Assembly (NCBI RefSeq): GCF_007748115.1
Contig: NZ_CP036289.1
Location: 248,001 to 312,000, forward strand
Length of the DNA: 64,000 nucleotides
Direction: 5' to 3'
Source: Bremerella volcania
GTDB lineage: Bacteria; Planctomycetota; Planctomycetia; Pirellulales; Pirellulaceae
Positions 12,432 to 32,433 of the stretch are shown in pieces. A program made the position numbers and the translations under genes. The stretch's first letter is position 1; each line of letters begins with the position of its first letter. The notes under the pieces are model-generated. The model was not told where the DNA came from. It was given only the letters and a program-made list of their open reading frames with translations, and made no database searches.

Positions 12432-15400
12432 TTATTCCTCTTCGTCGTCTCCACCGGAAGGGAAATGGGTCGTCCAGCCGTCGATTTGATCGTGAACTTC
12501 TTCCAGAGAAAGTTTCCTGAGCGGAATCGCTTCACCAGGTTGCCAGGCTTCATTTTCCGTCGAGAAGCTAGCTTCGAGTTCGACCTTGGTCACTTCTTCG
12601 TCCAGAGCCTTGAGCCAGGCGGGGATATCGAGCCCCACGCCGCTGGGCTCTTCGACCAATGCTTCCGCCTCGTCGTATAGCAGCTTGAAGGCCGTGTTGG
12701 CGTCTTCGCTTCCCATGTTGGTCATCGATTGCTCGACCAGTGAGCAGATCCGATCGACGGCCAGCGGCCGGACGAAGCGTTCCTTGATGCGGTCGGCAAC
12801 GGTGGGCATTTGCATGGCGTATTCGCGCTGCAGTTCTCGCAGCTTCTGCACGTACTTGTCGGCTTCGTCCTCGATGCGATCGGCCAACGCCTTACGCCAC
12901 ATTTGAGCTGCTTCGGAGTGCCCAGTGCGGACGAGGACTTCGTGCGTCATTACGATCGGCTTGAGGTTCCAAGAGACGCGATCGTACGCGGTACGAAGTC
13001 GCAGAAAGTCGAGGAACATGTACAGGTACTCGCCGCGGTCACTCTGCGTGGTCGTGCTGTTGTAGTCGCGATACTCGGCGAAGTTCTCCAGCACGGCTTC
13101 CAGCACCATGCTAAAACAGGCAATCGATTCGGTCCGGTTGATATTCGTTCCCATAGCCTGAATGAATAGAGGCCAGTCTTCATCGGGCCATTGCTGGCGA
13201 ACCTTTTCGATCCAGGTTGCCACACCGCCGTGCAGAATGCTGCGGATGTTGCCGCGATTGAAGAAGTGCTGGGTGAACAGATCAGCCCCGTACCGCTGAA
13301 TGAAAGCTTGAACGAGCTTCCATTGCCCAGGGTCAGAGAACTTCTCGACGGCCGACAAACGCAGCGTGCGACTGTGATTGAGCCACACAATCAAAAGATT
13401 CTGCGTGACATGTTCCAGGCACTCGACCAATGCGTTGTCGAGTTCCGAAGCCCCTTCTTTGGCGACTTCCCAACTCTCTGAGGAAGCGACGACGGCATCG
13501 ATAATCGCCAGAAAGCCTGTTTCAAATAGTGCGTCAAATTCGGTGATCGCACCGGGACCGATTGGGTTATCGTTTTCCATCTTCCGCGCCGTGTCGAGCA
13601 TCTGGCGCGAGAAGTCGTATTGCCCAATGCGCGGTAGCCAATGCAGCAGTTCGCGGATGGTCGATTGGCGAACACGTGTCGAAACGATTCGCAGTGGTCC
13701 ACCCCGCTTCGAGATTGGCACGTATAGCAGCGGTTTGTCTTTCAGAGTATTGAGCATCGGCGGGAAATGCTGCTGGACGGCCTCGGTATCGCCGGCAAGG
13801 ATCGCCGCCAATAGATCGACGGCCAGCGTTTGTTCCGCACCGATTTCTTTCTCGAGATTCTCGAGAGATTGCTTATGCTCAGGAGCAACCGCGGCCACGA
13901 CCGACGAAAGAATACGAGCCGCCGAGGCCGTGCTCACCGTCGTCATGATGATCCGCTCGAGCATGAACTCTTTGACGGCTCGCTGGCGATCGTATTCGAC
14001 CATCTCTTGGTGGTCACCGCTGATATCGCTCAGTTGATGTTGGTTCACGACCAGCAGCAGTTCCAGCAGTTCACGATAGTTGGTGATTGCCTGCTCTCGC
14101 CACTGCAGCAACTTCTCGACGACGACCGGTTCCCCCTCGCTACGCAGGGCCTGAAACGCAGCCATCTGCCACTGCTGGGCGACGCAGCTGAGAAACGAGA
14201 TGTGCATGTTGACGCGGCGCGATTCGACTTGCAGGTCTTCGCTCGATTCGGTCGAACTCGATCCTCCCTCGAAGATCGCCCCTTCGTTGCCATCGTCGGT
14301 GCTGTCGGTGAAAGTGACGTCTTCGTAAGCTGCCTGGAAGATGTCATCGTCTTCGCTGGGCTCTTCTCCTTGGAAGAGCGCGTCAAGTTCTTCGTCGAAC
14401 TGTCCCTTCTTCGCTTGCTTCGAGAACCACCCCGGCACCTGGCTGTAGATGCCGGCGTTGGCTTCCTGGAAATCCATGAAACGCTGAATCATCTGCCACG
14501 TCTCGGCCTGATTCTCAGGCGTGTCCGGCAGGGACTCGCGATGTTTCTGTAGCGTTAGAATCCACTGCGTCGCGATGCTGAAGTAGGACGTGTCGAGATG
14601 ATGCAGCGGGATCTCGTCGGCCTGTTCGAGCCAATTCATCAACAAGGCCATCGTGGTGACGAAGTCGTTCCGCTCGAGCAGCGCTTGAATCACCAGACCA
14701 TAGGCCTTGGGGGAATCGAACATTTCGACGTGCGGCGACCAGAAGGCAATATCGCCAGCTTCTGCTCCGGCTTTGTGCCACAGACGCAGGGCATCGGCCA
14801 CGCGTCGTGCCGCCGCAAAGGCATCGTCACCGCTGGGGCTATCGACGCTGGAAAGCTCGTGCGTGGCGAATTGATGCCACCACATGCTGAACTCTTCAAA
14901 CGCCCAGGCTGTTTTCGATCGCACGGCTTCGTCATCGCGCACGGCCGCTTCGCTGAGAGCCTGGGACATGAGGTCGAAGATTTGTTCGATCATCCGCGCC
15001 AAGTCATCAACGCGATGATCGCGGACGCTGTTCTCGTAGGCGGGGAACAAGCTGAACTGGCCGTCGAAGCCCAGGATGTTCCAGGGGTCGACGATCGCTC
15101 CGCATTCGATTGCCCGGTGGAGTCGATCAACGATGCGGTGAATGTACTCGATGGTTTCGTTCAGCTCGCCGCGACGCATGGCCTGATGGGCAAGCGTGAT
15201 GAAGCACTCAATGCGGCACTGCATCCGCGCAGAAGCGGTTGGGACGATATCGACCTGTTTGCCGGCCGCTTCGGGATAGCCCATCCGCGAAAAGATAAGC
15301 GCCAGGCGAACGTGTGCCAGCTGCTTTGCGCGGCGATTGCTGAGGTAAGCGTTTAAATGCTGTCGAGCGGCCCCGAACGGTTGGCGTCGTTGGATCGACT

Positions 15401-16442
15401 CTTCGTTGAGCCGCTGCGACATCGAGGCGGGGCAGTTATCCAGAAGCTGGTTGTAGAACCGATCGCGGTAGTTGGCGATAACGGGCACGAGTTTTGAGAG
15501 GGTCGTCTCCGAATCGTAAGCACCTGGTCCGCTGCCGCTGATGCCGGCACCCATGAGGATGACGCCAGCCAGAACGGCCGCCCCTTCGTACACGAGTTCT
15601 TCATGGCTCAAGTTTTCCGGAGGGTTGCGATCGACGCGGTCGGTTAATGCTTCCAGGGTGACTTGCTGTACGACAAAGCGATTGTAATGACCGCTCATGT
15701 CGATGCTGTCCGGGTCCCACTGTCCGAATTGGTAGTTCGGACGTTTGTTGACCGGATGCTCGAAGTCGTACGCTCGCGGGTCGATCGCCAATTCAACAAG
15801 TTTCGCGGGATCGAATCCAGCATCTTGTAAGATGTCCGGAGCCGTGCTGGCAAGCAGTTCCAAGGTCTTCTCGACAATCTCTTGGTGTCGACTTAGGCAA
15901 GCGCCTGCCCCTTTCAGCCAAATGGGAATAGGGCGGCAATACTCATGGGCGTACGGCTCGGTCTTGCGGGTTTCGAGCGCAGGAACCGGACGGTGTCCGA
16001 TGTAATCATTTAACTGTTCCAGGCAATTCTTGAGAACGCGGGCTTCGTCATCCCATTCGGCCGACTGCATCAGGACGGACTGCGCCACGCGGACGACGAA
16101 GAAAGGAGAGAATAGGCTCTCACCGCTTTGGTGAAACAAAAGATCGTGGTGGAACTTCAGGTAACCTGGCAGAACCACATCGAAGATATAGTACAGCGCA
16201 GTCTCGGCCTGGGTGCTTTGGTTCAAAGCGGCCGAAGTGGTCCTCAGGCGAGCGAGACCTTCTTTTAGCCTCTCACCAACGAGCGACCATTGCCAGATCG
16301 GTTTGGCTGGCTCGGATTCGGCAACCTGGCGAAACAGGTGGTCCATCGCCGTGGCGAAGCGGGCATCGAAGTCTCCGGAAGAGAAATTGAGATAGCCGAG
16401 TATCTTCTCGAGCAGAACATTCTCTTCAGCTGGATCACCCAT
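12432..16442 (-). CDS. large protein of unknown function (1336 aa)
   Basis: I do not recognise this protein. It has 1336 residues, no signal peptide and no evident membrane segment, so it is probably cytoplasmic. Most of it reads as amphipathic helices with TPR/HEAT-like spacing, rich in Trp-Leu and Ala pairs. The exception is an acidic, Ser/Glu/Asp-rich linker at ~684-742, which separates two helical halves. The C-terminus is acidic (GGDDEEE). The ATG at 16442 reads MGDPAEENV. The gene lies 113 bp upstream of the scpA repeat and has no paralogue in the window. Codon use looks like its neighbours, so recent transfer is not suggested. A scaffold role is a guess only. Confidence 0.75.
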   Translation of the reverse strand: MGDPAEENVLLEKILGYLNFSSGDFDARFATAMDHLFRQVAESEPAKPIWQWSLVGERLKEGLARLRTTSAALNQSTQAETALYYIFDVVLPGYLKFHHDLLFHQSGESLFSPFFVVRVAQSVLMQSAEWDDEARVLKNCLEQLNDYIGHRPVPALETRKTEPYAHEYCRPIPIWLKGAGACLSRHQEIVEKTLELLASTAPDILQDAGFDPAKLVELAIDPRAYDFEHPVNKRPNYQFGQWDPDSIDMSGHYNRFVVQQVTLEALTDRVDRNPPENLSHEELVYEGAAVLAGVILMGAGISGSGPGAYDSETTLSKLVPVIANYRDRFYNQLLDNCPASMSQRLNEESIQRRQPFGAARQHLNAYLSNRRAKQLAHVRLALIFSRMGYPEAAGKQVDIVPTASARMQCRIECFITLAHQAMRRGELNETIEYIHRIVDRLHRAIECGAIVDPWNILGFDGQFSLFPAYENSVRDHRVDDLARMIEQIFDLMSQALSEAAVRDDEAVRSKTAWAFEEFSMWWHQFATHELSSVDSPSGDDAFAAARRVADALRLWHKAGAEAGDIAFWSPHVEMFDSPKAYGLVIQALLERNDFVTTMALLMNWLEQADEIPLHHLDTSYFSIATQWILTLQKHRESLPDTPENQAETWQMIQRFMDFQEANAGIYSQVPGWFSKQAKKGQFDEELDALFQGEEPSEDDDIFQAAYEDVTFTDSTDDGNEGAIFEGGSSSTESSEDLQVESRRVNMHISFLSCVAQQWQMAAFQALRSEGEPVVVEKLLQWREQAITNYRELLELLLVVNQHQLSDISGDHQEMVEYDRQRAVKEFMLERIIMTTVSTASAARILSSVVAAVAPEHKQSLENLEKEIGAEQTLAVDLLAAILAGDTEAVQQHFPPMLNTLKDKPLLYVPISKRGGPLRIVSTRVRQSTIRELLHWLPRIGQYDFSRQMLDTARKMENDNPIGPGAITEFDALFETGFLAIIDAVVASSESWEVAKEGASELDNALVECLEHVTQNLLIVWLNHSRTLRLSAVEKFSDPGQWKLVQAFIQRYGADLFTQHFFNRGNIRSILHGGVATWIEKVRQQWPDEDWPLFIQAMGTNINRTESIACFSMVLEAVLENFAEYRDYNSTTTQSDRGEYLYMFLDFLRLRTAYDRVSWNLKPIVMTHEVLVRTGHSEAAQMWRKALADRIEDEADKYVQKLRELQREYAMQMPTVADRIKERFVRPLAVDRICSLVEQSMTNMGSEDANTAFKLLYDEAEALVEEPSGVGLDIPAWLKALDEEVTKVELEASFSTENEAWQPGEAIPLRKLSLEEVHDQIDGWTTHFPSGGDDEEE

Positions 16443-18554: not shown

Positions 18555-18903
18555 GCATTCCGCTAATGTTCCTTAAGATTATTGAAAGACTCGCGATCGA
18601 TTTGATCGCGAGTCTTTTTTTGTTGCTACGTAGGGAGGCGTATCGCCCCTTGCGCACCTCAAGAGGAACTTCATTTTTCAAAATGGACGCAGAAATAGAC
18701 ACGATCTAGTGCATTTCTCGGTTCTTCCCCGCTAAACTACACAGTGACCAACCGCACGTTCGTCTTCTGGAAGGGTGATGCACTGATCGCAAACTTCCAG
18801 CCAGCCTGGCGAACGCACCCCACATTCGCAAGCTTCTCATCAGCCGCGCGCGGTTGTCGACACGCATCCCGTTACCTACATGAATGCAGGAGATTTCACT
18901 CTC
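18555..18903. other. 349-bp intergenic region
   Basis: Apart from the terminator at 18585-18621, it holds no supported gene. The promoter of the following large multidomain gene should lie between about 18630 and 18880. I see no strong consensus match. Confidence 0.5.
18585..18621 (+). terminator. Rho-independent terminator
   Basis: A perfect 14-bp stem (aaagactcgcgatc at 18585-18598 with gatcgcgagtcttt at 18604-18617), a 5-nt loop and a run of T's ending at 18621. It lies 31 bp after the stop of the PQQ-propeller gene. Confidence 0.92.
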
Positions 18904-21900
18904 ATGATTAAGCATCTGACATGGCTTTTGGTCGGCTTTATCGCGACCGCCGCGGCGAATACCGCTTCGGCGGACGATGCCGGCTTCAAGCCTATTTTTG
19001 ATGGCAAGACGCTCAACGGTTGGAGCGGCATCGATAAGTTTTGGAGCGTCGAAGATGGCGCGATTACCGGAACGACGACGTCCGAGAATCCCACCAAGGG
19101 AAACACGTTTATCATTTGGGATCAGGGCAAGGTCGACGACTTCGAACTGAAGCTGAAGTACCGCATCGTCGGTGGCAACTCCGGCATTCAGTACCGGTCG
19201 ACCGACCTGGGCAACCATGTCGTCAAAGGCTACCAGGCCGACATCGATAGCGGCACGACCTACAGCGGCATCAACTACGAAGAACGCGGTCGCGGTATCC
19301 TCGCTCAACGCGGCGAAAAGGTAATCGTTCATGACGGCAACAAAGATCCCCAGAAGGAACGCTTTGCCGAGTCGGCTGAACTGCAAGACAAGATCAAGCA
19401 GGAAGACTGGAACGATTACCACATCATCGCCAAGGGAAATCACCTGATTCATAAGATCAATGGTGAAGTCTTCAGCGAAGTTATCGATGAAGGCGAAAAG
19501 GATTCCCGCACCAGCGGCATCCTGGCACTGCAGCTGCATGCCGGTCCGCCGATGAAGGTCCAATTCAAGGACATCATGCTCAAGCGTCTTCCTTTGCAGG
19601 AAGGTAAGAAGAAGGTCGTCTTTGTTCCCGGTACGCCAAGCCATGCCTGGGGCGATCACGAACACGTTGCCGGTTGTCGCCTGTTGATGTTGGCCCTAAC
19701 CGAGAACATGCCGCAGTTCGAAGCTTCGATCTACAAAGGGGGTTGGCCTGACGATCCGACCGCGTTCGACAATGCCGATGCGGTGGTTGTCTACTGCGAT
19801 GGCGGCGAACGTCACCTGCTGAAGCCGCACCTGGAAGAGTTCCAGAAGCTGATGGACAAGGGCGTCGGTCTGGCATGCATTCATTACGGAGTGGAAATCC
19901 CCAAGGGAGAGCCTGGCGACAAGTTCGTCGACTGGATTGGTGGTTACTTTGAAACGTGGTGGAGCGTCAATCCGCACTGGACGGCCTCGTTCAAGGCGCT
20001 GCCAGATCACCCCATCGCCAACGGTGTCGAGCCATTCGAGATCAATGACGAGTGGTACTACAACATGCGGTTTCGCAACGAAATGGTAGGAGTCACTCCG
20101 ATTCTGACCGCCACGCCGCCAGAAAGCACGCTGAGTCGACCCGACGGACCGCATAGCGGCAACCAGCACGTTCGCGCGATGAAAGGTCAGCCTCAGCATG
20201 TTGCCTGGGCTGCCGAGCGTGAAGATGGCGGCCGTGGTTTTGGTTTTACCGGTGGGCACTTCCACTGGAATTGGGCTGACCCTAACTTCCGCAAAGTGGC
20301 TCTCAACGCCATCGTGTGGATCAGCCACGAAGAAGTTCCGGAAAACGGCGTCGAGTCAGTTTCTCTCTCTCGAGACGACATGGAAGGCCTGATTCCCGAA
20401 CCGAAGCCGCAGCCGAAAAAACAGGAAGCCAAAAAGCCTGCGGCTAAAAAAGTTTCCCAGAATGTAAAGCCTCTGTATCAAAGTCCCGTCGTCACCACCG
20501 CGACTCCGGGACATCAGGTCGACATTAAGGTCGACCTGAAAGGGGCCAAGAAGCTGTTTCTCGTCGTCAGCGACGGCGGGAACGGCTACAGCTGCGACTG
20601 GGCCGATTGGATTGAGCCCAAGCTGGTTGGTCCCAGTGGTGAAAAGAAGCTGACCGAACTGAACTGGAAGAAGGCAACCACCGACTGGCGTGAGGTCAAC
20701 AAGAATCGTAACGTCGACGGCAGACCGCTGATGGTCAACGGCAAGCCTTACGAAAATGGCATCGGCACGCACGCCAATTCCGTGATTGAATATGATCTGC
20801 CCGAAGGCTATACGACCTTCGTGGCCAAGGGCGCGCTCGACAATGGCGGTACGAATCAAAATGGTGGTGGCCATACGTCCGTTCAGTTTGCCGTTTACAC
20901 TACCGACCCCGGCAACGTTTCCGAGCAAGCCGAGAGTGCCGGACGCGGTCCTGAGAATGCGGTCGCGAATCTTGACGTTTACCCGGGTCTCAAGGCAACG
21001 CTCACTGCTTCCGAGCCAGATCTGAAGAGCCTAACCAATATCGATATCGATCATCGTGGCCGCATCTGGGTATGCGACGTGATGAACTACCGCCGCAACA
21101 ACGGCAGCCGTGAAGAAGGGGATCGGATCCTCATCCTGGAAGATGAAGATGGGGACGGAGTAGCCGAGAAGTCCAAGGTCTATTATCAAGGTCGCGACAT
21201 CGATTCGGCGATGGGTATTTGCGTGCTGGGAAATAAGGTCATCGTTTCCGCTTCACCCAATATCTACGTCTTTACCGATGAAAATGGTGACGACAAGCCT
21301 GAGAAGAAAGAGCTTCTGTTCACCAATACCGGCCAGCCTCAGCACGACCACTCCGCCCACAGCTTTCTCTTTGGCCCAGATGGCAAGCTTTACTGGAACG
21401 TCGGTAACACCGGCAAGCATGTTTACGACGCCAACGGCAAGATAGTTGTCGACCTGGCTGGCAACGAAGTGATTGACGATGGTCAGCCTTATTTCGGTGG
21501 TATGCCATTTCGCTGTAATCTGGATGGAAGCGAGTTCGAAGTCCTCGGACACAACTTTCGCAACAACTACGAAGTCACCGTCGATTCGCTGGGCAATTTG
21601 TGGCAAAGTGATAACGACGACGACGGCAACCGCGGCGTACGCATTAACTACGTGATGCAGTACGGTAACTATGGTTACCGCGACCAGATGACCGGCGCCG
21701 GCTGGCGTGATCCTCGTACCAACATGGAAAGCGAGGTCCCACTGCAGCACTGGCACTTGAACGACCCAGGCGTCGTGCCTAACCTGCTGCAAACGGGTGC
21801 CGGCTCACCTACCGGCATTTGCGTTTACGAAGGGGACTTATTGCCCAAGGTCTTCCACAATCAAGTGATCCACTGCGATGCTGGTCCAAGCATCGTTCGC

Positions 21901-23883
21901 GCTTATCCGGTCAAGAAAGACGGAGCTGGCTTCTCGGCCGAGTCGGTCGATATCTTGCAAGGTGCCCGCGATAACTGGTTCCGCCCAGCGGACGTGTGCG
22001 TAGCTCCTGATGGTTCGTTATTCGTCAGTGACTGGTACGATCCAGGCGTCGGTGGACATGCTCAACGCGACCTCGATCGCGGCCGCCTGTTCCGCGTCGC
22101 CCCGGAAGGGTCCAAGTACATCGTGCCGAAATTTGACTTCACCACCACCGAAGGCTGCATCAAAGCGCTGAACAACCCATGTCTTTCGGTACGCTACATC
22201 GCCTGGACGAACTTGCACAAGCAAGGTGCCAAGGCCGAAGCGGCACTGAAAGCGGCCTATGATTCGGCCAAGGACACCCGGGAAAAGGCTCGCCTCCTAT
22301 GGCTTCTGGGTAAGATCGAAGGGAAGGGGAGTCAGTATGTCGACCTGGCGTTGGCTTCCGATAACCCCGACCTCCGCATTGTCGGTCTACGCCTGGCGCA
22401 TCAGCTGAAGATTCCAGCCACCGAAGTTGTGGCGAAGGTCCTGGAGGATAAGAACCCTCAAGTTCTCCGCAGTGCCGCCATCGAGCTTCGCTTTGACGGC
22501 AGTGACAAGGCTTCTCAGCAATGGGCTCAGCTGGCCAAGCAGTACGACGGGAAAGATCGCTGGTACCTGGAAGCACTCGGCATCGGGGCTGACCTGCATT
22601 GGGACAGCCGCCTGGCGGCTTACCTGTCGGCCATTGATGGCAACATCGATACCGATGTTGAGAAGGACGTCGTCTGGCGGAGCCGCGCTACGCAGACGCC
22701 TAGGCTGTTGGCTTCGATCATCGAAGACAAGAAGAACTCGGCGGACAAGCTGGCTCGTTACTTCCGAGCACTTGACTTCCAGCCGAACGCCGATGGCGTG
22801 AACAGCGCGGTCGCTGCGTTGGCTTTCGCCGGCACGCGACATGATGCTGCCGAGACGATGATTATCTCAGAGTCGGTCAAGCGTCTGAAGAACTACGATG
22901 CCAATAACCCCGAGTCGGCGGCCGCCATGGAAAAGGCACTGGCCAAGCTCGAAGGGACGTCGATGTACGTCGACCTGGTCGACCGTTTCCAGCTCAAGCA
23001 GCATTATGGCCAACTCCGAGAGCTGGCCATTGCTCAACCAGAAAGCGCGATCGGCGTGGCCGCTGCCGATGTGCTGCTGCGTCGTGGGCAGAACGAGTTG
23101 CTTGCCGACATCCTGACCTTAGGCACGCCCGAACAAAAGCTGGCGCTGACTACTGCGATTTCCAATAGCAGCAGTGGCCAGGCGACTGCCTGGTTACGAC
23201 GAACGTTGAACGACTCGAAAGCCGATCTGCAAGTTCGCCGCGCAGCGGTGAAGGGCTTGGCTAATAACGAGAAGTCGGCCAAGCAGTTACTGGAACTTGC
23301 CAAGAGCGGCAAGCTCGACCCCGAGCTGATGCAGGCCGCGGCCGCTCCGCTGAAGATCGCCGTTTGGAACGACGTCCGCAGTCAGGCCGCCGAGATCTTC
23401 CCGCAACCCCCCTCGAAGGATAACAAGCCCCTGCCTCCGATGGATCAGTTGGTGAAGATGAGAGGCTCCGTTGATAACGGCAAGAAGGTCTTCACCACTG
23501 AAGGTACCTGTAACAAGTGCCACATCGTGAACAAGGAAGGTAAAGAAGTCGGACCTGACCTGAGCGAGATTGGCTCGAAGCTGAGTCGCGAGGCGATGTT
23601 CGAGGCGATTCTTTATCCAAGTGCTGGCATTAGTCATAACTACGAAAACTGGGCTGTGCTGACCGATAGTGGTACCGCGATCGCCGGCTTGAAAACGAGC
23701 GAGACGGCCGATTCGATCACGATCACCAATGCCGAAGGTCTTGTCCGCACCATTCCCAAGAATGAAGTGGAAGAGATCCGTAAGCTTCCTATCTCGGTCA
23801 TGCCGAACGATCTGCAGAAACTGATGACCGTTCAGGAACTGGTCGATGTGGTCGACTACATCTCGACCCTTAAGAAGAAATAG
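18904..23883 (+). CDS. DUF1080-ThuA-NPCBM-dehydrogenase-HEAT-cytochrome multidomain protein
   Basis: A giant exported protein of 1659 residues. The ATG at 18904 is chosen because it begins a good signal peptide (MIKHLTWLLVGFIATAAANT); an ATG at 18880 would add eight residues. In order: DUF1080, the 3-keto-disaccharide hydrolase family (~22-225); ThuA-like (~235-480); a Lys/Pro linker; NPCBM (~522-672, with GIGTHA); the planctomycete/Verrucomicrobia dehydrogenase propeller of the TIGR02604 type (~680-1072); HEAT-like helical repeats (~1075-1500); and a terminal haem domain of the TIGR02603 type with CNKCH near 1535. The domains suggest sugar binding, oxidation and cleavage with electrons passed to haem, in the periplasm. 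The NPCBM and dehydrogenase parts are common together; the DUF1080-ThuA start makes this version unusually complete. A terminator follows. Confidence 0.9.
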   Translation: MIKHLTWLLVGFIATAAANTASADDAGFKPIFDGKTLNGWSGIDKFWSVEDGAITGTTTSENPTKGNTFIIWDQGKVDDFELKLKYRIVGGNSGIQYRSTDLGNHVVKGYQADIDSGTTYSGINYEERGRGILAQRGEKVIVHDGNKDPQKERFAESAELQDKIKQEDWNDYHIIAKGNHLIHKINGEVFSEVIDEGEKDSRTSGILALQLHAGPPMKVQFKDIMLKRLPLQEGKKKVVFVPGTPSHAWGDHEHVAGCRLLMLALTENMPQFEASIYKGGWPDDPTAFDNADAVVVYCDGGERHLLKPHLEEFQKLMDKGVGLACIHYGVEIPKGEPGDKFVDWIGGYFETWWSVNPHWTASFKALPDHPIANGVEPFEINDEWYYNMRFRNEMVGVTPILTATPPESTLSRPDGPHSGNQHVRAMKGQPQHVAWAAEREDGGRGFGFTGGHFHWNWADPNFRKVALNAIVWISHEEVPENGVESVSLSRDDMEGLIPEPKPQPKKQEAKKPAAKKVSQNVKPLYQSPVVTTATPGHQVDIKVDLKGAKKLFLVVSDGGNGYSCDWADWIEPKLVGPSGEKKLTELNWKKATTDWREVNKNRNVDGRPLMVNGKPYENGIGTHANSVIEYDLPEGYTTFVAKGALDNGGTNQNGGGHTSVQFAVYTTDPGNVSEQAESAGRGPENAVANLDVYPGLKATLTASEPDLKSLTNIDIDHRGRIWVCDVMNYRRNNGSREEGDRILILEDEDGDGVAEKSKVYYQGRDIDSAMGICVLGNKVIVSASPNIYVFTDENGDDKPEKKELLFTNTGQPQHDHSAHSFLFGPDGKLYWNVGNTGKHVYDANGKIVVDLAGNEVIDDGQPYFGGMPFRCNLDGSEFEVLGHNFRNNYEVTVDSLGNLWQSDNDDDGNRGVRINYVMQYGNYGYRDQMTGAGWRDPRTNMESEVPLQHWHLNDPGVVPNLLQTGAGSPTGICVYEGDLLPKVFHNQVIHCDAGPSIVRAYPVKKDGAGFSAESVDILQGARDNWFRPADVCVAPDGSLFVSDWYDPGVGGHAQRDLDRGRLFRVAPEGSKYIVPKFDFTTTEGCIKALNNPCLSVRYIAWTNLHKQGAKAEAALKAAYDSAKDTREKARLLWLLGKIEGKGSQYVDLALASDNPDLRIVGLRLAHQLKIPATEVVAKVLEDKNPQVLRSAAIELRFDGSDKASQQWAQLAKQYDGKDRWYLEALGIGADLHWDSRLAAYLSAIDGNIDTDVEKDVVWRSRATQTPRLLASIIEDKKNSADKLARYFRALDFQPNADGVNSAVAALAFAGTRHDAAETMIISESVKRLKNYDANNPESAAAMEKALAKLEGTSMYVDLVDRFQLKQHYGQLRELAIAQPESAIGVAAADVLLRRGQNELLADILTLGTPEQKLALTTAISNSSSGQATAWLRRTLNDSKADLQVRRAAVKGLANNEKSAKQLLELAKSGKLDPELMQAAAAPLKIAVWNDVRSQAAEIFPQPPSKDNKPLPPMDQLVKMRGSVDNGKKVFTTEGTCNKCHIVNKEGKEVGPDLSEIGSKLSREAMFEAILYPSAGISHNYENWAVLTDSGTAIAGLKTSETADSITITNAEGLVRTIPKNEVEEIRKLPISVMPNDLQKLMTVQELVDVVDYISTLKKK

Positions 23884-23957: not shown

Positions 23958-24109
23958 GTTGGGTTTCTGCCGATTCTGCGGAATTTTCTACATCTTTGAC
24001 CATCGCCCCTGGGGGACTTACGACCTAGAATAGAGGGTTTGCGTAAACTATGCGGGCTACGCTTGCATCCTTAATCGACCTGCGATCGTTCCTTCAACCT
24101 AAGCCAGCC

Positions 24110-27100
24110 ATGATTCGTTTCTGCTTCGCCTTCGTTTTGTTGGTCACTTGCTCTGCGCCGGCATTTGCTCAGGACGCTTTTTTCCCGACGGCCGACCTGC
24201 TTCCTAAAAAGGAGATCGGTGCGACACGCTATTTGAAGCAGCACCGCAAATTTGATGGCCGTGACGTCATCGTCGCCGTGTTTGATACCGGCTGCGATCC
24301 GGCTGCGCCAGGTCTTCAAGTCACGTCCGATGGCAAGCCCAAGGTCATCGACATGATCGACGCCACCGGCAGTGGGGACGTCAACACGACGACCATTCGC
24401 AAAGTGGAAGAAGGTCAGATCGAAGGGCTGACCGGGCGCAAGCTGACCATTCCCGAAAAGTGGAACAACCCCAGTGGGGAGTACCGCGTTGGCATGAAGC
24501 CAGCGTACGAACTCTTTCCCGATCATCTCATTCCGCGTCTGCGAGCCGAAAACCGCAAGCTTTGGGACGAAGCCGTGCGCGCGAAGGTCGAGCAGTTGAC
24601 TCGCGAGTTGGAAGCATTCAAGAAAGCCAATCCCAAGCCTAGGGGTGAGAAACTCAAAGAGAAGAAGGAACTCGAAGTTCGGCTGGAAGAACTGACCAAG
24701 TTGGGTAAGAACTGGAGCGACCCAGGTCCGATCTATGACTGTGTCGTTTTCAACGATGGCAACTCGTGGCAAGCGGCCATCGATACGGACGAAGATGGCG
24801 ACCTCAGCGACGAAAAGCTGATGACCAACTACAAAGTCAAACGTCAATACTCGACCTTCGGTGAGGTCGACCTCGTGACGTTCGCCGTGAACATTTATCA
24901 GGACGGCGATGTGCTGAGCATCGTCTGCGATGCCGGCACCCACGGTACGCATGTCGGCGGGATTATCGCGGCGAACTATCCCGACACGCCCGAACTCAAC
25001 GGCGTGGCTCCTGGGGCACAGATTGTTTCGGTGAAGATTGGCGACTCGCGACTCGGGTCGAATTCGACCGGGATCGGTGAAGATCGCGGTCTGATTGCCG
25101 TGCTGGAGAATAAGTGCGACCTGATCAATATGAGCTACGGTGGGCCTTCGCCGGAGTGGAGCACCGGGCGAACGGCTCGGTTGTTCTCAGAGATCGTCAA
25201 TCGCTACGGTGTGATCTTCGTGGCCAGCGCCGGCAATGATGGCCCTGGGCTAAGCACCGTCGGCAGCCCAGGCGGAACGACCTCGGCTATTCTCGGTGTG
25301 GGTGCCTACGTCTCGCCTGAGCTGATGTCCGCGGCATATTCGGTGCGCGAAGAACTTGGCGAAAAGCCGTTCACCTGGAGTTCACGCGGACCAACGATGG
25401 ATGGTGACCTGGGTGTCGATATCACGGCACCAGGCGGTGCGGTTTCACCTGTCTCGCGCTGGTCACTTTCTCCTGGCAGTCTGATGAACGGGACCTCGAT
25501 GTCCTCGCCCAATGCGTGCGGTGGAGTGGCATTGATCCTGAGCGGACTGAAGCAAGAGAAAATCGCCTACACGCCGGAATCGGTCAAGCTGGCCATCAAG
25601 AACACGGCACGCAAGCTCGAAGGTGGATCCGTCTGGGCCAATGGCCAGGGGCTGATCCAAGTCGATGCGGCCTTCGACTGGCTGGAAGATCATCGTGACG
25701 AAGTGGAACCGGAAGTTCGCTACGACGTTTCCTTGCCGGGCATGCGCACCAAACGAGGTGTCTACTTGCGAGAACCGGAAGAGATTAAACGTGCCCAGGA
25801 AGTCACGGTCGAAGTCGATCCTCAGTTCAACGAAGATGCCAAGTTTGGTCCCCGGGCCGACTATCGCGCCGAGTTCTTCCTGAAGTGCGACGCAGACTGG
25901 GTGAAGATCCCGCAAAACTTTTACGTGAACCATGGCGGTCGCACCTTCAAGATGGAAGTCGATCCACGCAATCTGAAGCCGGGCGCGCACTTCGCTTCGG
26001 TCGAGGGTTACTACGCGGATCGGCCTGACATGGGGCCGCGATTCCGAGTGCCGATTACCGTGTTGGTGCCATCCCCGAAGAAGACTCCCACTGAATTCAA
26101 AACAACCTTACAGCTTCAGCCTGGGCAGATTGATCGGACGTTTATCGAGGTGCCGATGGGGGCCACGTGGGTCAACGTTCGCGTAAAGCCCACGAAAGCG
26201 GACGACACCAAGCTGTTCGTGTTTCATGCCCTGCAGCGGCTGGAAGATCGCTCGTTTCCGACGATCGAAAAGCAAAGCTTCCTGCGGGTCGAGCCCAACG
26301 AGGCTACCGAAATCAGCTTTGCCGTGGCCGAAGGGAAGACTTTGGAAATGACCCTGGCCCAGTATTGGTCGACGCTCGGCCAAAATGAGGTTGAACTCGA
26401 AGCGACGTTCTTCGGCATCCTGCCGAGCCCTGCCGAGTTGACCTGGGACGGAACGAACCCGATTCACCGCATCGACGTGCAATCGAGCCTGGGCCCGATG
26501 CAGATCAAACCGAGCGCCAAGTTTGAAAAGCTGCGCAAGACGCTGCTGCCAGTGAAGAGTGAAGTCGAAGCCCTCGATCCCGAGCGGGACGAATTCCCGC
26601 GGAAGCGATTGAATTACGGCATCACGCTTACCTACGAGTTTACCCTGAGCGAAAAGTCGACCGTCACGCCAGAGCCAATCATCTGGGCTAACGGTTATGA
26701 TCGATACTCTGGTGGCGTGTACGTCATTTACGACGCCAACAAACGCGTCATGACAACCGGGGCCGGTGGCCGCGAAGCATCGCTCGACAGGGGGAAGTAC
26801 ACGTTGACGTTCTACTTCCGCCAAGAGAATCGCGACAAGGTACTGGAACTGGAAGACATGCCCATCTGGCTCGACTACAAGATCAGCGGCCCAGGCATTC
26901 GCACCTTCGATACGCATGAGAAAGCGGCCAACCAGGAAGGGGGCTTCAGTGCTGCCTGGCTTCGTCCTGGGCAACTACTTCCCGTTTTCCTGACGACCAA
27001 TCCGAAAGGCCTCCCCAAACAAGCCTCGCCGGGGGATTTGTTGATCGGGGAGATTCAGTTTGGTGATTCCGATGCCAAGCTGGGTGGCGACGCTCGACGC

Positions 27101-27904
27101 CCTGGCGGCTTTCCTTTGCAGTACGTCGTCGGCCCGCAGCCGACACCTAAAACGGAAACGCCTGATCCGCCGAAAGAGGATGAGCCAACGCTGGCCGACA
27201 AGCTCTTCGAAACCAAGCTTGCTTACCTGAAGACGCTCAAAGATAAGAAGCAGAAGAACGAATTCGATAATCTGTTCAAGGAGTTGAACAAGGAAAAGAA
27301 GAAGCACGTTCCGCTGCTGCAAGCCAAGTTGATCTTGCTGGACGAGAACGATCGCAAGGATCACCTCCCCGAAGTGGTTCAGGCCGCCGACGAGGTTCTT
27401 AAAGCAATTAACGTCGGTAAGGTGCGAAGCTATTTTGCCGAACGCCGCGATCCGGAAACGGACAAAGAAAAGAAGCAGATGAAGGAAATGACCGAGCTGA
27501 AGGAAGCGATCATCGATACGCTTTTCCGCAAAGCCCGAGCCATCGCCTATATGGATCTGCCAGAGGATGACCCAGAGCACCCAGAAAATAAAGACATCCG
27601 CAAAGAGCCGAAGGACGAGAAAGAACGAGCCGAGCTATTTGAGAAAGCGTTTGACGATCTGGCAAGCTGGGTCGATACCACCGATAAGAAATACGCTCTA
27701 GTTCATCTCCGGCGTCTTCGCCGCCACGATCGCCAAGCCGAAGCCCTGCAACTGCTTAACAAGATGATCGCCGATGATCCGACGAACTTGCTTCTGTATA
27801 AGAAACGCTCGGATATCTACGGCGAATTAGGCTGGGATTTTGCCGAAAAGTACGAGGAAAAGTGGCGAAATCTCCGCAAGCGAGACGCCTATCTCCCGAA
27901 CTGA
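24110..27904 (+). CDS. secreted tripeptidyl-peptidase II-like subtilase (S8)
   Basis: A serine peptidase of the subtilisin clan that closely resembles eukaryotic tripeptidyl-peptidase II, which removes tripeptides from peptide N-termini. Starting at the ATG at 24110, the catalytic residues are Asp59 (VFDTGCDPAAPG), His278 (GTHGTHVGG), oxyanion Asn376 (SAGNDGPG) and Ser463 (NGTSMSSPNACGG). The long insert between Asp and His, including TGSGDVN and YDCVVFNDG, is typical of TPPII rather than ordinary subtilisins. The full length (1264 residues) is close to that of the animal enzyme (~1250). Unlike the cytosolic eukaryotic form, it starts with a signal peptide (MIRFCFAFVLLVTCSAPAFAQ). The C-terminal third is helical and Lys/Glu-rich. 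The alternative ATG at 24050 would hide the signal peptide behind 20 residues. Confidence 0.9.
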   Translation: MIRFCFAFVLLVTCSAPAFAQDAFFPTADLLPKKEIGATRYLKQHRKFDGRDVIVAVFDTGCDPAAPGLQVTSDGKPKVIDMIDATGSGDVNTTTIRKVEEGQIEGLTGRKLTIPEKWNNPSGEYRVGMKPAYELFPDHLIPRLRAENRKLWDEAVRAKVEQLTRELEAFKKANPKPRGEKLKEKKELEVRLEELTKLGKNWSDPGPIYDCVVFNDGNSWQAAIDTDEDGDLSDEKLMTNYKVKRQYSTFGEVDLVTFAVNIYQDGDVLSIVCDAGTHGTHVGGIIAANYPDTPELNGVAPGAQIVSVKIGDSRLGSNSTGIGEDRGLIAVLENKCDLINMSYGGPSPEWSTGRTARLFSEIVNRYGVIFVASAGNDGPGLSTVGSPGGTTSAILGVGAYVSPELMSAAYSVREELGEKPFTWSSRGPTMDGDLGVDITAPGGAVSPVSRWSLSPGSLMNGTSMSSPNACGGVALILSGLKQEKIAYTPESVKLAIKNTARKLEGGSVWANGQGLIQVDAAFDWLEDHRDEVEPEVRYDVSLPGMRTKRGVYLREPEEIKRAQEVTVEVDPQFNEDAKFGPRADYRAEFFLKCDADWVKIPQNFYVNHGGRTFKMEVDPRNLKPGAHFASVEGYYADRPDMGPRFRVPITVLVPSPKKTPTEFKTTLQLQPGQIDRTFIEVPMGATWVNVRVKPTKADDTKLFVFHALQRLEDRSFPTIEKQSFLRVEPNEATEISFAVAEGKTLEMTLAQYWSTLGQNEVELEATFFGILPSPAELTWDGTNPIHRIDVQSSLGPMQIKPSAKFEKLRKTLLPVKSEVEALDPERDEFPRKRLNYGITLTYEFTLSEKSTVTPEPIIWANGYDRYSGGVYVIYDANKRVMTTGAGGREASLDRGKYTLTFYFRQENRDKVLELEDMPIWLDYKISGPGIRTFDTHEKAANQEGGFSAAWLRPGQLLPVFLTTNPKGLPKQASPGDLLIGEIQFGDSDAKLGGDARRPGGFPLQYVVGPQPTPKTETPDPPKEDEPTLADKLFETKLAYLKTLKDKKQKNEFDNLFKELNKEKKKHVPLLQAKLILLDENDRKDHLPEVVQAADEVLKAINVGKVRSYFAERRDPETDKEKKQMKEMTELKEAIIDTLFRKARAIAYMDLPEDDPEHPENKDIRKEPKDEKERAELFEKAFDDLASWVDTTDKKYALVHLRRLRRHDRQAEALQLLNKMIADDPTNLLLYKKRSDIYGELGWDFAEKYEEKWRNLRKRDAYLPN

Positions 27905-28071: not shown

Positions 28072-30933
28072 ATGAGACCCGACCTATATGCCTACATGGC
28101 TTTATTCTGCTTGGCGCTGCTAACCACCACGGTTGCCGCCGAGGAGAATGATATTGATTTCGGCCGAGACATTCGCCCGATCCTCTCCGGCAAGTGTTTC
28201 CATTGCCACGGCCCTGATCCCGAATCGCGTGAGGCCGGTTTGCGCCTCGACATTGAAGAGGACGCCAAGGCAGAACTCGATAGCGGCCTGCTGGCGATCG
28301 TGCCTGGCAATGTGGACGAAAGTGAACTGTTTGCTCGGATTATCGCGGACGACGAGTTCACGCGCATGCCACCCCCTGAGATCGGCAAGCAGCTTTCCGA
28401 ACGAGAAGTGAAGCTTATTCGCAAGTGGATCGAGCAGGGTGCCAAGTACGCGCCGCACTGGTCGTTCGATCCTCCCAAGAAGCATGCACCACCTAAAGTG
28501 CAGAAATCGGATTGGGTGAAGAACGAGATCGACGCGTTCATCCTCAAGCGGCTCGAGGAAGAAGGGCTCACGCCGAATGAGGAAGCGGATCGTTATGCTT
28601 TGGCTCGTCGTGTTTCCTTTGCCCTGACAGGACTGCCGTTGTCGGTGGAAGAAACTGAAGCTTTCGTCAACGATGACTCACCCAATGCTTACGAAAAACT
28701 GGTCGACCGCTTGCTGGACGATCCCGCCTATGGCGAACGCTGGGCGCGCGTCTGGCTCGACATTGCACGCTACGCCGACTCGATGGGTTACGAAAAGGAC
28801 AGCCCGCGAACGATTTGGCCCTATCGCGATTGGGTGATTAAAGCGATTAACGAGAACAAACCGTTCGATCAATTCAGTATCGAGCAACTCGCCGGCGATT
28901 TGTTGCCTGATCCGTCCCAAGATCAGATTATCGCCACGGCGTTTCATCGCAATACGATGACCAACACTGAAGGGGGCACCAACGACGAAGAGTTCCGCAA
29001 CGCGGCCGTGATCGATCGAGTGAATACGACCATTCAGGCCTGGATGGGGCTGACCATGGAGTGTGCCCAATGTCACACGCACAAATACGATCCGATCACG
29101 CAGCAGGAATACTTCGAGTTCTTCGCGATCTTCAATCAAACCGAAGATGCCGACCGCAATGATGAATCGCCTCTGCATCGGTGGTTCACGGAAGAACAAG
29201 AGTCGCAGAAGGCCGGCATCGTGTCGCAAATTGAGGAAGCCAAAGCGAAGCTGAAGCAGATGCTGGAAGACTCGGCGGAGATTGCCTTGTCGGAAAACGT
29301 CCCCAACGTGGGTCGCTATGTGCGAGTCGAGAACGTTGCGGACAGCGCCTATCTGCATATCGCGGAAGTGCAGGTCTTCTCGAACGAGAACAACGTGGCC
29401 GTCAACGGAAAGGCTTCTCAGATCAGTGTCGACTATAACGGCCCTGCGAATCTCGCGATCGATGGCAATACCAACGGCGACTTCGCCGGAGCGATGAGCA
29501 CGATCCACACGAAGCAAGAGAAAAACCCCTGGTGGGAAGTCGATTTGGGTGCCAGCACCACGATCGATAAGGTCGTTATTTGGAATCGCACCGATGGCGA
29601 TCTATTCAATCGGATGAAATCGTGCCGCGTGATCATCTTGGATGAAAATCGCCAGCCGGTTTGGGCGGGAAGGGTCGATTCTCCCTTCAATCCGACTGCC
29701 GAATTCGTCCCTCCCAAGTCCGTAGATGGCATGGACGAGCGTGCTCGGGTGGAACTGGCTGCCTATCTCAAAGGCAACTCGCCAGAACTGGAGAAGCAAA
29801 AGAAACGCATCGCCAGCCTGGAGAAGAAGCGGGACAGCATCAAGCCGATCACTACGCCGGTGATGAAGCAGTTGCCGGCGGATAAGCATCGTAAGACGCA
29901 CATCCAGATTCGCGGCAACTATCAGTCGCGCGGCGAGGAAGTCACCGCGAGCGTGCTTGACAACTTCCACGCGTTTCCTGAAGAAGCCAAGACCGATCGT
30001 CTTTCGATGGCCAAGTGGTTGGTCAGTAAAGAGAACCCGCTAACGGCGCGCGTCGTGGTGAATCGGCACTGGGAACAGTTGTTTGGGATTGGCATTGTCG
30101 AAACCAGCGAAGACTTTGGTTCTCAGGGCGAACTGCCGACCCATCCGAAGTTGCTGGATACGCTTGCGGTTGAGTTGATGCAGCATGAGTGGGATACGAA
30201 GTGGCTGGTCAAGCAGATCGTGATGAGCCAGGCATTTCGACAGTCGGCCAAGACGACTCCTGAAAAGTTGGAATTAGATTCTCGGAACCAACTGGTTTCG
30301 CGTGGCCCGCGGGTTCGTTTGTCTGCCGAGATGGTGCGCGACCAGGCCCTGGCGACCAGCGGGCTTCTGAGTAGGAAGATGTATGGACCATCAGTCCATC
30401 CGCCCCGGCCGAACCTAGGGCTCAAAGCGGCGTTTGGCGGAGCGACCGACTGGACGACAAGTTCCGGAGAAGACCGTTATCGTCGCGGAGTCTATACGAT
30501 GTGGCGACGAACGACTCCCTATCCTTCGATGTCCACATTCGACGCACCCAGCCGCGAAGTCTGTACGATTCGCCGGATTACGACCAACACACCGCTCCAG
30601 GCTTTGGTGACCCTGAACGATCCGGTCTACATCGAAGCGGCGCAGGCCCTTGGCCGTAAAGTTTGGGAGCAGAAGGAGCTTTCCTTGGAAGAGAAAGTCG
30701 CGGATGCATTCCGCCGCGTTCTGAAGCGACCGCCGAGCGAACAGGAGAAGACCCGGTTGGTCCAACTGTTCGAACGGGCCAAGTCACAATACTCATCCAT
30801 GCCGGAAGAAGCGACCAAGTTGGCGACCGATCCCTTGGGACCACTGCCAGAGGGGGCAGCCGCCGACGAACTCGCGGCTTGGACCATTCTGGGAAATGTA
30901 CTTTTGAACCTGGACGAGACGTTGAACCGGTAA
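28072..30933 (+). CDS. PSCyt1-DUF1549-F5/8C-DUF1553 protein
   Basis: A 953-residue paralogue of the protein at 3725. The signal peptide covers ~1-23 and the haem motif CFHCH lies at residues 42-46. DUF1549 spans ~145-360 and ends with CAQCH. A coagulation-factor 5/8 type C (discoidin) module at ~407-540 is marked by GRYVRVEN, LAIDGNTNGDF, WWEVDLG and VVIWNRTDG; it probably binds glycans. DUF1553 runs from ~635 to the end (NPLTARVVVNRHWEQLFG). It is 42 bp upstream of a DUF1501 gene on the same strand, its usual partner. Its module slot holds F5/8C where the 3725 paralogue has LamG. Confidence 0.93.
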   Translation: MRPDLYAYMALFCLALLTTTVAAEENDIDFGRDIRPILSGKCFHCHGPDPESREAGLRLDIEEDAKAELDSGLLAIVPGNVDESELFARIIADDEFTRMPPPEIGKQLSEREVKLIRKWIEQGAKYAPHWSFDPPKKHAPPKVQKSDWVKNEIDAFILKRLEEEGLTPNEEADRYALARRVSFALTGLPLSVEETEAFVNDDSPNAYEKLVDRLLDDPAYGERWARVWLDIARYADSMGYEKDSPRTIWPYRDWVIKAINENKPFDQFSIEQLAGDLLPDPSQDQIIATAFHRNTMTNTEGGTNDEEFRNAAVIDRVNTTIQAWMGLTMECAQCHTHKYDPITQQEYFEFFAIFNQTEDADRNDESPLHRWFTEEQESQKAGIVSQIEEAKAKLKQMLEDSAEIALSENVPNVGRYVRVENVADSAYLHIAEVQVFSNENNVAVNGKASQISVDYNGPANLAIDGNTNGDFAGAMSTIHTKQEKNPWWEVDLGASTTIDKVVIWNRTDGDLFNRMKSCRVIILDENRQPVWAGRVDSPFNPTAEFVPPKSVDGMDERARVELAAYLKGNSPELEKQKKRIASLEKKRDSIKPITTPVMKQLPADKHRKTHIQIRGNYQSRGEEVTASVLDNFHAFPEEAKTDRLSMAKWLVSKENPLTARVVVNRHWEQLFGIGIVETSEDFGSQGELPTHPKLLDTLAVELMQHEWDTKWLVKQIVMSQAFRQSAKTTPEKLELDSRNQLVSRGPRVRLSAEMVRDQALATSGLLSRKMYGPSVHPPRPNLGLKAAFGGATDWTTSSGEDRYRRGVYTMWRRTTPYPSMSTFDAPSREVCTIRRITTNTPLQALVTLNDPVYIEAAQALGRKVWEQKELSLEEKVADAFRRVLKRPPSEQEKTRLVQLFERAKSQYSSMPEEATKLATDPLGPLPEGAAADELAAWTILGNVLLNLDETLNR

Positions 30934-30975
30934 CGCCCTGTTGGTGGCCGCTCGAGATAATCCATTGAACGAGAG

Positions 30976-32433
30976 ATGACGATGAATCCTTTCCATCGAC
31001 CTTTGCAGAACGTTACGCGTAGATACTTCCTCTCGCAGTGTCAGGCTGGCCTGGGAGGGCTCGCACTGAGTTCGCTCTTGGGTGGCATGGCAAGTGGTGC
31101 CGAGGCCACTCCCAGCAACCCGATGGCTCCGGCTCAGCCGCACTTTCCGGCCAAGGCCAAGTCCGTGATTTACCTGCATATGACGGGTTCGCCGCCGAAT
31201 CTGGACTTGTTCGACTACAAGCCAGAACTGATCAAGCACAACGACAAAGACTGTCCCGCAGAGTTCTTTGAGGGCAAAGAGTTCGCGTTTACTACCGGAA
31301 CACCCAAATTAATGGGGACGCCCCACAAGTTCCGCAAGGTTGGTAAGTCGGGGATGTGGATGTCAGATGCGCTGACGCACTTGGAAGAAGTTGCCGACGA
31401 CCTTTGCTTCATCCATTCCATGAATACCGATCAGTTCAATCACGCCCCGGCCGAGTTGTTGCTCTATACTGGATCGCCGCGATTGGGACGTCCTTCCATG
31501 GGTTCTTGGGTGACCTACGGGCTGGGCTCCGAAAATGCCAATCTGCCTGGGTTCGTGGTGCTCGTATCCAGCGGCGTCAATCCGGCCGGCGGTAACAGCG
31601 ATTGGGGAAGCGGCTTCCTGCCGTCGGTCTACCAAGGCGTCCAGTGCCGATCGAAGGGGGATCCTGTTCTGTACCTGAATAATCCGGCTGGCATGGACAA
31701 GGACATGCGTCGCATGACTCTCGATGCGATGAATGACTTGAACGAAATGGAACTCCAGCGAATGGGTAATCCGGAAACCGAGACCCGCATCAGCCAGTAT
31801 GAGCTGGCCTTCCGCATGCAGATGGCGGCCCCTGAAGCGATGGATCTGAGCCAGGAAACGCAGGCCACCCTCGATGCCTACGGGGCAAAGCCGGGCGATT
31901 CAAGCTTGGCTAACAACTGCTTGCTCGCACGGCGGCTTGTGGAACGTGGCGTTCGATTCGTGCAACTGTTTGATTGGGGCTGGGATTTCCACGGCACCAG
32001 TGTCGCCACCGGTCTTCAAGATGGTCTGCGGGACAAGTGTGCCACGATGGATCGGCCTGTCACTACGTTGATTAAGGACCTGAAACAACGCGGACTGCTG
32101 GACGAAACGCTGGTGATCTGGGGTGGCGAATTTGGTCGGACTCCATTCCGCGAAGGTCGCACAGCTGGCAGTAACGTCCTGGGTCGTGACCATTACCCCG
32201 ACGTCTTTAGCCTGTGGATGGCAGGCGGCGGTGTGAAGCCTGGGTTTTCATACGGCGCCAGCGACGAACTGGGCTTCAAAGTAGCCGAAAACAAAGTCCA
32301 TATTCATGACCTGCAGGCCACCATTTTGCACTGTCTGGGCATGAATCACGAACGGCTCACCTACCACTTCGCTGGCCGAGACTACCGCCTGACGGACGTT
32401 CACGGCAATGTCGTTCACGACATCCTGGCGTAG
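30976..32433 (+). CDS. DUF1501 domain-containing protein
   Basis: A 485-residue DUF1501 protein. The N-terminus (TRRYFLSQCQAGLGGLALSS) is a Tat-like signal. Family blocks include MTGSPPNLDLFDYKP, WGGEFGRTPFREG, GRDHYPDVFS and RDYRLTDVHGNVVHDIL at the end. It closely resembles the DUF1501 protein at 6836, so the two cytochrome/DUF1501 gene pairs look like duplicated modules. Its stop lies 12 bp from the stop of a converging small gene, leaving no room for a separate terminator. Confidence 0.93.
   Translation: MTMNPFHRPLQNVTRRYFLSQCQAGLGGLALSSLLGGMASGAEATPSNPMAPAQPHFPAKAKSVIYLHMTGSPPNLDLFDYKPELIKHNDKDCPAEFFEGKEFAFTTGTPKLMGTPHKFRKVGKSGMWMSDALTHLEEVADDLCFIHSMNTDQFNHAPAELLLYTGSPRLGRPSMGSWVTYGLGSENANLPGFVVLVSSGVNPAGGNSDWGSGFLPSVYQGVQCRSKGDPVLYLNNPAGMDKDMRRMTLDAMNDLNEMELQRMGNPETETRISQYELAFRMQMAAPEAMDLSQETQATLDAYGAKPGDSSLANNCLLARRLVERGVRFVQLFDWGWDFHGTSVATGLQDGLRDKCATMDRPVTTLIKDLKQRGLLDETLVIWGGEFGRTPFREGRTAGSNVLGRDHYPDVFSLWMAGGGVKPGFSYGASDELGFKVAENKVHIHDLQATILHCLGMNHERLTYHFAGRDYRLTDVHGNVVHDILA

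Follow-up and report, generated by a model that had tools for sequence, protein, structure and literature searches.

P0001, a protein encoded in a 64,000-nucleotide stretch of the Bremerella volcania genome (contig NZ_CP036289.1, positions 248,001 to 312,000; this stretch is called the window below, and coordinates without a prefix are counted in it), carries in a single chain, and in this order, a signal peptide, a DUF1080 domain, a ThuA domain, an NPCBM region, a β-propeller, HEAT-like repeats and a c-type haem domain. We propose, with belief and doubt about evenly balanced, that it is an exported, self-contained protein for oxidative glycoside processing, with a keto-sugar pathway in one polypeptide. 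The modules, their order, their conservation and their linkage are established by sequence and fold comparisons, and from these we infer each of the catalytic steps. All the component families are known already; what is new is their integration, the shifting gene structure and a puzzle concerning the cofactor pyrroloquinoline quinone (PQQ).

Domain architecture

The gene and the parts of its product are:
18904..23883 (+): whole gene P0001, an open frame for a 1,659-aa exported multi-domain protein
18904..18972 (+): predicted Sec-type signal peptide, cleaved after Ala-Ser-Ala at residue 23 (read from the sequence)
18982..19584 (+): DUF1080 / 3-keto-disaccharide hydrolase domain (PF06439), residues 27-227
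19600..20418 (+): ThuA domain (PF06283), residues 233-505 as compared among orthologues
20344..20463 (+): linker of low conservation, residues 481-520
20464..20937 (+): NPCBM-type carbohydrate-binding region, residues 521-678
20950..22128 (+): β-propeller of the Planctomycetes-Verrucomicrobia-Chlamydiae (PVC) type, sugar-dehydrogenase-like (TIGR02604 / DUF7133), residues 683-1075
21343..21360 (+): HDHSAH motif, residues 814-819
21610..21624 (+): acidic cluster DNDDD, residues 903-907
22156..23418 (+): HEAT-like α-helical array, residues 1085-1505 (model secondary structure and profile match)
23467..23868 (+): c-type haem domain (TIGR02603), residues 1522-1655
23509..23523 (+): CNKCH haem-attachment motif (C1536, C1539, H1540)
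23800..23802 (+): M1633, the expected distal haem ligand (= Met292 of Kustd1711)

The first-pass annotation of this DNA had placed all these domains in one frame behind a signal peptide. Except for the HEAT repeats, the profile searches bear this out, with PF06439, PF06283, PF08305, TIGR02604 and TIGR02603 all scoring above their curated cut-offs, and the structural models likewise give a ThuA fold, a sugar-dehydrogenase-like propeller, a 3-keto-glycoside eliminase/hydratase fold and a helical array. The DUF1080 domain (130.2 bits, cut-off 26.8) shares its fold and family with the solved 3-keto-glycoside eliminase/hydratases of the BT2157 type (PDB 8tda, 8rr2, 9fbe), BT3469 (4jqt) being the best fold match. 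The ThuA profile covers residues 289-472 (68.0 bits, cut-off 33.4), and the fold comparison also assigns this part to ThuA. The linker that follows is modeled with a predicted local distance difference test score (pLDDT) <50 at residues 507-518 (model residues 488-499). NPCBM was found at residues 581-676 (PF08305: 106.3 bits, cut-off 23.9), and the profile of the region matches 2vmg, 7js4 and 7jrm. Three profiles identify the propeller (TIGR02604, PVC-type heme-binding CxxCH protein: residues 695-1069, 325.4 bits, cut-off 122.2; DUF7133: residues 683-1047, 187.9 bits, cut-off 27; GSDH: residues 797-1041, 30.0 bits, cut-off 25) and two identify the haem domain (TIGR02603: 104.8 bits, cut-off 68.15; Pfam cytochrome c: residues 1523-1573, 31.7 bits, cut-off 21.3). 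The HEAT repeats of the first-pass annotation stand as a helical array and not as a Pfam assignment: HEAT_2 at about residues 1400-1479 remains under its cut-off (20.2 vs 27.7 bits), but the model of residues 676-1659 has a long α-helical array between the propeller and the haem domain, and the profile of this part matches designed alphaRep (HEAT-like) proteins.

A single gene under purifying selection

The frame without a stop extends over 18880-23883 and gives 1,667 aa when counted from its first ATG. The start at 18904 is preferred, because all nine copies from the genus align from there and read MxxHLxW. That the gene is an assembly artefact joining two genes, which the earlier reading had itself raised as a danger, has a negligible probability and is refuted: the genome consists of a single contig (6,496,182 bases), P0001 is matched over its full length 1-1659 (once 1-1658) at 80-100% identity in all nine same-genus genomes searched (its own included), several distant relatives carry the full fusion, and every part is under purifying selection. 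A match to P0001 at E <= 1e-150 was seen in 33 of 294 genomes from the phylum.

The ratio of nonsynonymous to synonymous substitution rates (dN/dS) among the nine congeners, given as the pairwise median (taken, depending on the part, from 23 to 36 of the 36 pairs), is 0.071 for DUF1080, 0.043 for ThuA, 0.044 for the propeller and 0.060 for the haem domain, against 0.17 for the linker (the highest of seven parts), 0.12 for the NPCBM region and 0.11 for the HEAT-like array; since the synonymous sites are almost saturated (median dS 1.05-1.59), the ranking is more reliable than the individual values. All the enzyme and haem modules are thus kept under strong purifying selection, and this, together with the invariant residues described below, rules out that any of them is dead.

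Fused and split forms

The survey of orthologous loci started from 141 stretches (the locus itself, 60 chosen from genome searches, and the best 80 of at least 589 places in named genomes); after removal of propellers with <55% identity or <330 aligned residues and of identical propellers, a non-random sample of 123 distinct loci was left. The order DUF1080-ThuA-NPCBM-propeller-HEAT-haem (D-T-N-P-H-C) is the same in 123/123 loci for domains that are fused or adjacent, and 19 loci have all six domains in one ORF (open reading frame). With respect to the propeller, the haem domain is fused in 78 loci, adjacent in 33, neither in 4 and not judged in 8; the corresponding numbers are 80, 23, 13 and 7 for ThuA, 29, 26, 52 and 16 for DUF1080, and 104, 3, 13 and 3 for NPCBM. 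Since relatives so often carry the parts as separate neighboring genes, the fusion points to a real pathway and not to a chance join.

On a quick tree with flagged long branches, which makes the counts rough, the minimum numbers of state changes are 27 (D), 20 (T), 12 (N) and 18 (C). Near relatives of the genus show such steps, with D separate in G028 and D-T apart from the rest in G026; the break inside ThuA in G028 may be a frameshift in a draft genome. The boundaries at which the chain is divided differ among the loci; breaks in the HEAT-like array lie near residues 1293-1320. Of the separate haem genes, 31/33 start with a hydrophobic secretion-like stretch, which argues that most of them encode genuine exported proteins. 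Fewer of the genes that follow a D split (4/8) or a T split (7/13) obey this rule, and frameshifts may therefore account for some DUF1080/ThuA and ThuA/NPCBM breaks in draft genomes. One locus (L205) has a copy of the planctomycete type although its metagenome-assembled genome is labeled Rickettsiales, probably through an error of labeling or binning.

Genome-wide linkage

When propeller orthologues were defined by identity >=54% (31 of 294 genomes) and ThuA orthologues by E <= 1e-50 anywhere in the genome, ThuA was found in 30/31 genomes with the propeller vs 9/263 without it (Fisher p 7e-32, ignoring relatedness). One of the nine, G206, has a ThuA-propeller piece at a contig end. G313, G339 and G272 still carry a ThuA gene, but not beside the propeller gene. 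The linkage of DUF1080 is looser than that of ThuA: seven genomes with no DUF1080 beside the core (G029, G034, G018, G025, G027, G020, G033) have a 52-59% identical copy elsewhere, and so has G016, whose adjacency was not judged.

In three loci from Verrucomicrobiota a gene for a psicose-3-epimerase-like TIM-barrel protein directly precedes the DUF1080 gene (L200:5052-5987, L197:5130-5975, L203:5127-5972; scores of 177.8-182.6 bits, where the equivalog cut-off is 300) and is followed by the DUF1080, ThuA and propeller genes. Two further loci (L209, L210) have, beside the cluster and in the opposite direction, a gene for a TIM-barrel protein that belongs to this broad family, which brings such neighbors to 5/123 loci.

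Conserved residues of the domains

In orthologue sets that were pre-filtered by identity and length, a choice that favors conservation, the DUF1080 domain has N92, Q96, R98, Q111, D113, E127, W169, N186, D195, Q210 and H212 invariant in 64/64 sequences, and ThuA has H304, H327, E331, N356, D382, E383, H452 and H454 invariant in 107/107. Compared with the paralogues of the same genome, DUF1080 keeps 31/42 positions common to at least 12 of 20 sequences; the 11 exceptions include Q111 and D113. These 20 sequences come from the 27 other domains above the cut-off, of which the seven weakest were left out. ThuA keeps 20/29 positions common to at least five of seven.

In the propeller, H814, D815, H816 and H819 of the HDHSAH motif, all five residues of the acidic cluster DNDDD, and R886, N887, H949, R1027, D1030, D1043, D1046 and H1052 are conserved in 123/123 orthologues. 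The HMMER alignment places D815-H816 and R886-N887 opposite Asp143-His144 and Arg228-Asn229 of soluble glucose dehydrogenase, which we take to be its catalytic and PQQ-site residues, respectively. The acidic cluster is a candidate metal site. In the haem domain, C1536, C1539, H1540 and M1633 are present in 112/112 orthologues; in the alignment with 7zs0, 7zs1 and 7zs2, M1633 corresponds to Met292, the ligand altered in 7zs1 and 7zs2.

The propeller and the PQQ question

In the comparison of propeller folds, the 16 best rows are all sugar dehydrogenases, after which there is a drop to designed propellers at 24.5. Among solved structures, its best relatives are aldose or pyranose dehydrogenases. 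It took the fold comparison to show this, since at the level of sequence the propeller profile matched dehydrogenases only weakly (E 0.002) and ranked designed propellers above them.

PqqC was identified in only one of 40 genomes searched (G024, a relative), with no match in the B. volcania genome itself, and over the cut-off in 0/35 further chosen genomes (G012 being common to both sets, and G156 giving a single match broken into two pieces); none of the 14 controls in these searches was positive either. PqqE was over the cut-off in 0/20 genomes, the own one included, and its weak matches in 20/20 genomes as well as 14/14 controls make this search uninformative. The hhalign comparison with Escherichia coli YliI, a weak alignment (probability 6%), places no lysine at the position of the PQQ-binding lysine, presumably Lys377, and an arginine from the C-terminal part of YliI near R1027. 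Because PqqC has no match in its genome, the host probably does not make the usual quinone itself, and we do not accept P0001 as a settled PQQ quinoprotein. Import of PQQ is possible, since E. coli carries the propeller-related YliI and yet, to our knowledge, makes no PQQ. The cofactor centre may thus be PQQ taken up from outside, or it may be of another kind, conceivably a metal held by the invariant acidic cluster.

Proposed mechanism

The following steps are given in decreasing order of certainty. The propeller would act as a sugar dehydrogenase and pass electrons to the C-terminal His/Met-ligated c-type haem, from there to a periplasmic carrier and on to the respiratory chain; by analogy with Kustd1711, the haem may be of high potential. 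The DUF1080 domain would cleave a 3-keto-glycoside by elimination of the aglycone and subsequent hydration of the product. The propeller may itself form this 3-keto-glycoside by oxidizing the glycoside at C3. ThuA may act on the released keto-sugar, which in some genomes the epimerase could also handle. Finally, and least certainly, NPCBM may hold the glycan and the HEAT-like array may space the haem domain. Of the machine sketched in the first-pass annotation, which was to bind a glycan, oxidize it at C3 and cleave the product, the keto-sugar processing, the dehydrogenase fold and the electron transfer fit these data; oxidation at C3 is a step that we only infer. We further speculate, doubtful as it is, that the propeller could represent a third class of glycoside C3-oxidases, distinct both from the NAD-linked Gfo/Idh/MocA enzymes and from the LacABC type. 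Its cofactor centre would be new or imported, and it would be connected to a c-type haem and fused to the very eliminase by which its product is cleaved.

Several observations weigh against the proposed one-chain pathway, beside the PqqC and lysine results given above and the filtering of the orthologue sets. DUF1080 is absent beside the core in 52/107 judged loci and ThuA in 13/116. Position 352 of ThuA is Trp, where 7/7 paralogues and 43/107 orthologues have His. Propellers of this type also occur in the genome joined to modules of the GDSL lipase-like, ceramidase-like and lectin kinds, so fusion alone is no proof of one pathway.

Alternative explanations

The most serious alternative, rather unlikely in our view, is a pathway with its steps in another order, in which DUF1080 and ThuA set free or remodel a keto-sugar formed elsewhere, e.g. 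by a Gfo/Idh/MocA protein, and the propeller-haem part oxidizes the released sugar at C1 or C2. Known propeller sugar dehydrogenases act at C1 or C2, and the aldose and pyranose dehydrogenases found as the best solved relatives would agree with this, as would the many cores with no DUF1080 beside them and the genomes in which DUF1080 is encoded away from the core (e.g. G029, G034, G018, G025). However, that ThuA is so tightly linked to the propeller, and so repeatedly fused, suggests consecutive steps, and no Gfo/Idh/MocA protein was found among the neighboring genes scanned in two sets of 10 and 9 (taken from 962 neighboring ORFs, with the 14 commonest clusters considered), which is a thin test.

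Improbable, in turn, is a string of independent carbohydrate-active modules brought together by domain shuffling, with only export and a glycan anchor in common. The paralogues bear on this. Above the cut-offs, the genome encodes 28 DUF1080 domains (in 27 ORFs), 8 ThuA domains and 17 TIGR02604 ORFs; propeller-haem ORFs contain 4/8 of the ThuA domains and 3/27 of the DUF1080 ORFs (P0001 is in both counts, and one of the three has a propeller score under the cut-off). Two adjacent giant ORFs (G000:C1:3627341-3635388, i.e. L224:4842-12889) have the arrangements propeller-haem-DUF1080 and DUF1080-propeller-haem, a point in favor of the one-chain pathway. Two other propeller-haem proteins are fused to ThuA and a GDSL lipase-like module (L258:634-5595) and to ceramidase-like (below the cut-off) and laminin-G modules (L259:8-4891). 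Such variety of modules (ThuA four times, DUF1080 three times, GDSL lipase-like, ceramidase-like with laminin G, F5/8) and the frequent state changes (no fewer than 27 for D, 20 for T and 18 for C on the quick tree) speak for shuffling. Nonetheless, the order is identical in all the orthologous loci, ThuA is retained in the genome after leaving the locus (e.g. G313, G339, G272), and four ThuA-propeller ORFs are seen vs 0.03 expected by chance if 5,000 genes are assumed.

We consider it very improbable that the propeller is a Ca2+-dependent lactonase- or isomerase-like domain, with the haem serving another purpose, as dehydrogenases score about 2-6 Z units higher in the fold comparison and 111/115 judged loci have a haem domain that is either fused or adjacent.

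Relationship to known systems

A close parallel to the one-chain pathway is found in Caulobacter. There LacABC, a lactose 3-dehydrogenase bound to the membrane, carries out the periplasmic C3 oxidation of the glycoside, and a DUF1080 protein in the periplasm has been proposed to follow it and to cleave the product (PMC9007349). That route differs in using separate proteins and another type of dehydrogenase. A search for PF13618 (Gluconate_2-dh3), which we take to be a subunit family of LacABC, gave 0 matches in the B. volcania genome and was positive in 2/14 controls, Caulobacter included; a LacABC-type oxidase of its own was therefore rejected by this marker. The BT2157-type enzyme stands alone, unlike the domain in P0001, and in the BT2157 system oxidation is carried out by a separate NAD-linked protein.

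The propeller fold is common to P0001, AA12 pyranose dehydrogenase and soluble PQQ glucose dehydrogenase (6jt5, 6h7t, 1c9u). The fungal AA12 enzyme also carries a cytochrome, of the b-type, and a carbohydrate-binding module. P0001 differs from both in its c-type cytochrome, the extra invariant acidic cluster, the fused keto-glycoside enzyme, the PQQ lysine that the weak alignment suggests is lost, and a host in which PqqC was not found.

The haem domain is related to the diheme cytochrome Kustd1711 (7zs0, E 2.8e-35 with the profile), with which it shares a C-terminal haem domain with His/Met ligation; P0001 differs in having a single haem, fused to enzymes. PMC11791136 describes Kustd1711 as a putative electron carrier with a potential of about +350 mV. 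The high redox potential of Kustd1711 is tuned by Ca2+.

PVC bacteria are described as having many cytochrome genes, some joined to carbohydrate modules and without a known role (PMC5615132). The PSCyt/PSD proteins resemble P0001 in this joining of cytochrome domains to carbohydrate modules and differ in their domain families, DUF1080 and ThuA being absent from the text of the paper. No title or abstract opening describing the P0001 fusion was found in open-access listings, outside which most subscription journals fall. Separately, a 2024 Nature paper is said to report an alternative pathway of glycan breakdown.

Genomic neighborhood and other features of the window

Further features of the window are:
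18584..18618 (+): terminator-like hairpin upstream of P0001
23919..23954 (+): terminator-like hairpin of 15 pairs downstream of P0001
34226..35131 (-): separate ThuA protein, 301 aa
35219..36796 (-): separate DUF1080-ThuA protein, 525 aa in one ORF, a distant paralogue

Terminator-like sites are not enriched in the region (9 vs a mean of 8.5 in shuffles). The second DUF1080/ThuA pairing that the first-pass annotation reported in the window is real, with corrected limits: it is the fused ORF at 35219-36796, and the one at 34226-35131 is a separate ThuA gene.

A BamB/PQQ_2-like propeller protein is encoded 5' of P0001 (16866-18554, +), with the upstream hairpin in between, and a TPPII-type subtilase lies directly 3' (24050-27904, +), followed at 28072-32433 (+) by a PSCyt1-PSCyt2-F5/8-PSD1 protein and a DUF1501 protein. 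A 1,336-aa ORF at 12432-16442 (-) has no Pfam match at E <= 1e-5. When the 962 ORFs neighboring the orthologues were clustered and the 14 commonest clusters inspected, nine representatives being scanned with profiles, the largest clusters were DUF1501 (17/123 loci) and PSCyt1-PSCyt2-PSD1 (14/123), both widespread families among planctomycetes; the TPPII-type protease occurs in six loci, five of them from the genus (L001, L129, L216, L217, L218) and L096. With these as the commonest neighbors, a specific conserved neighborhood of the fused gene was rejected.

Significance

The P0001 family ties the cytochrome-propeller proteins to keto-sugar enzymes and offers a defined, expressible protein for the question of combined oxidation and elimination. 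DUF1080 is very common in planctomycetes (PMC5673643), and the family could help to explain this abundance. P0001 would also make the function of TIGR02604 and TIGR02603, for neither of which we met an assigned activity, directly testable. If the propeller were indeed a third class of C3-oxidase, PVC bacteria would open glycans oxidatively outside the cytoplasm, with neither classical glycoside hydrolases nor NAD.

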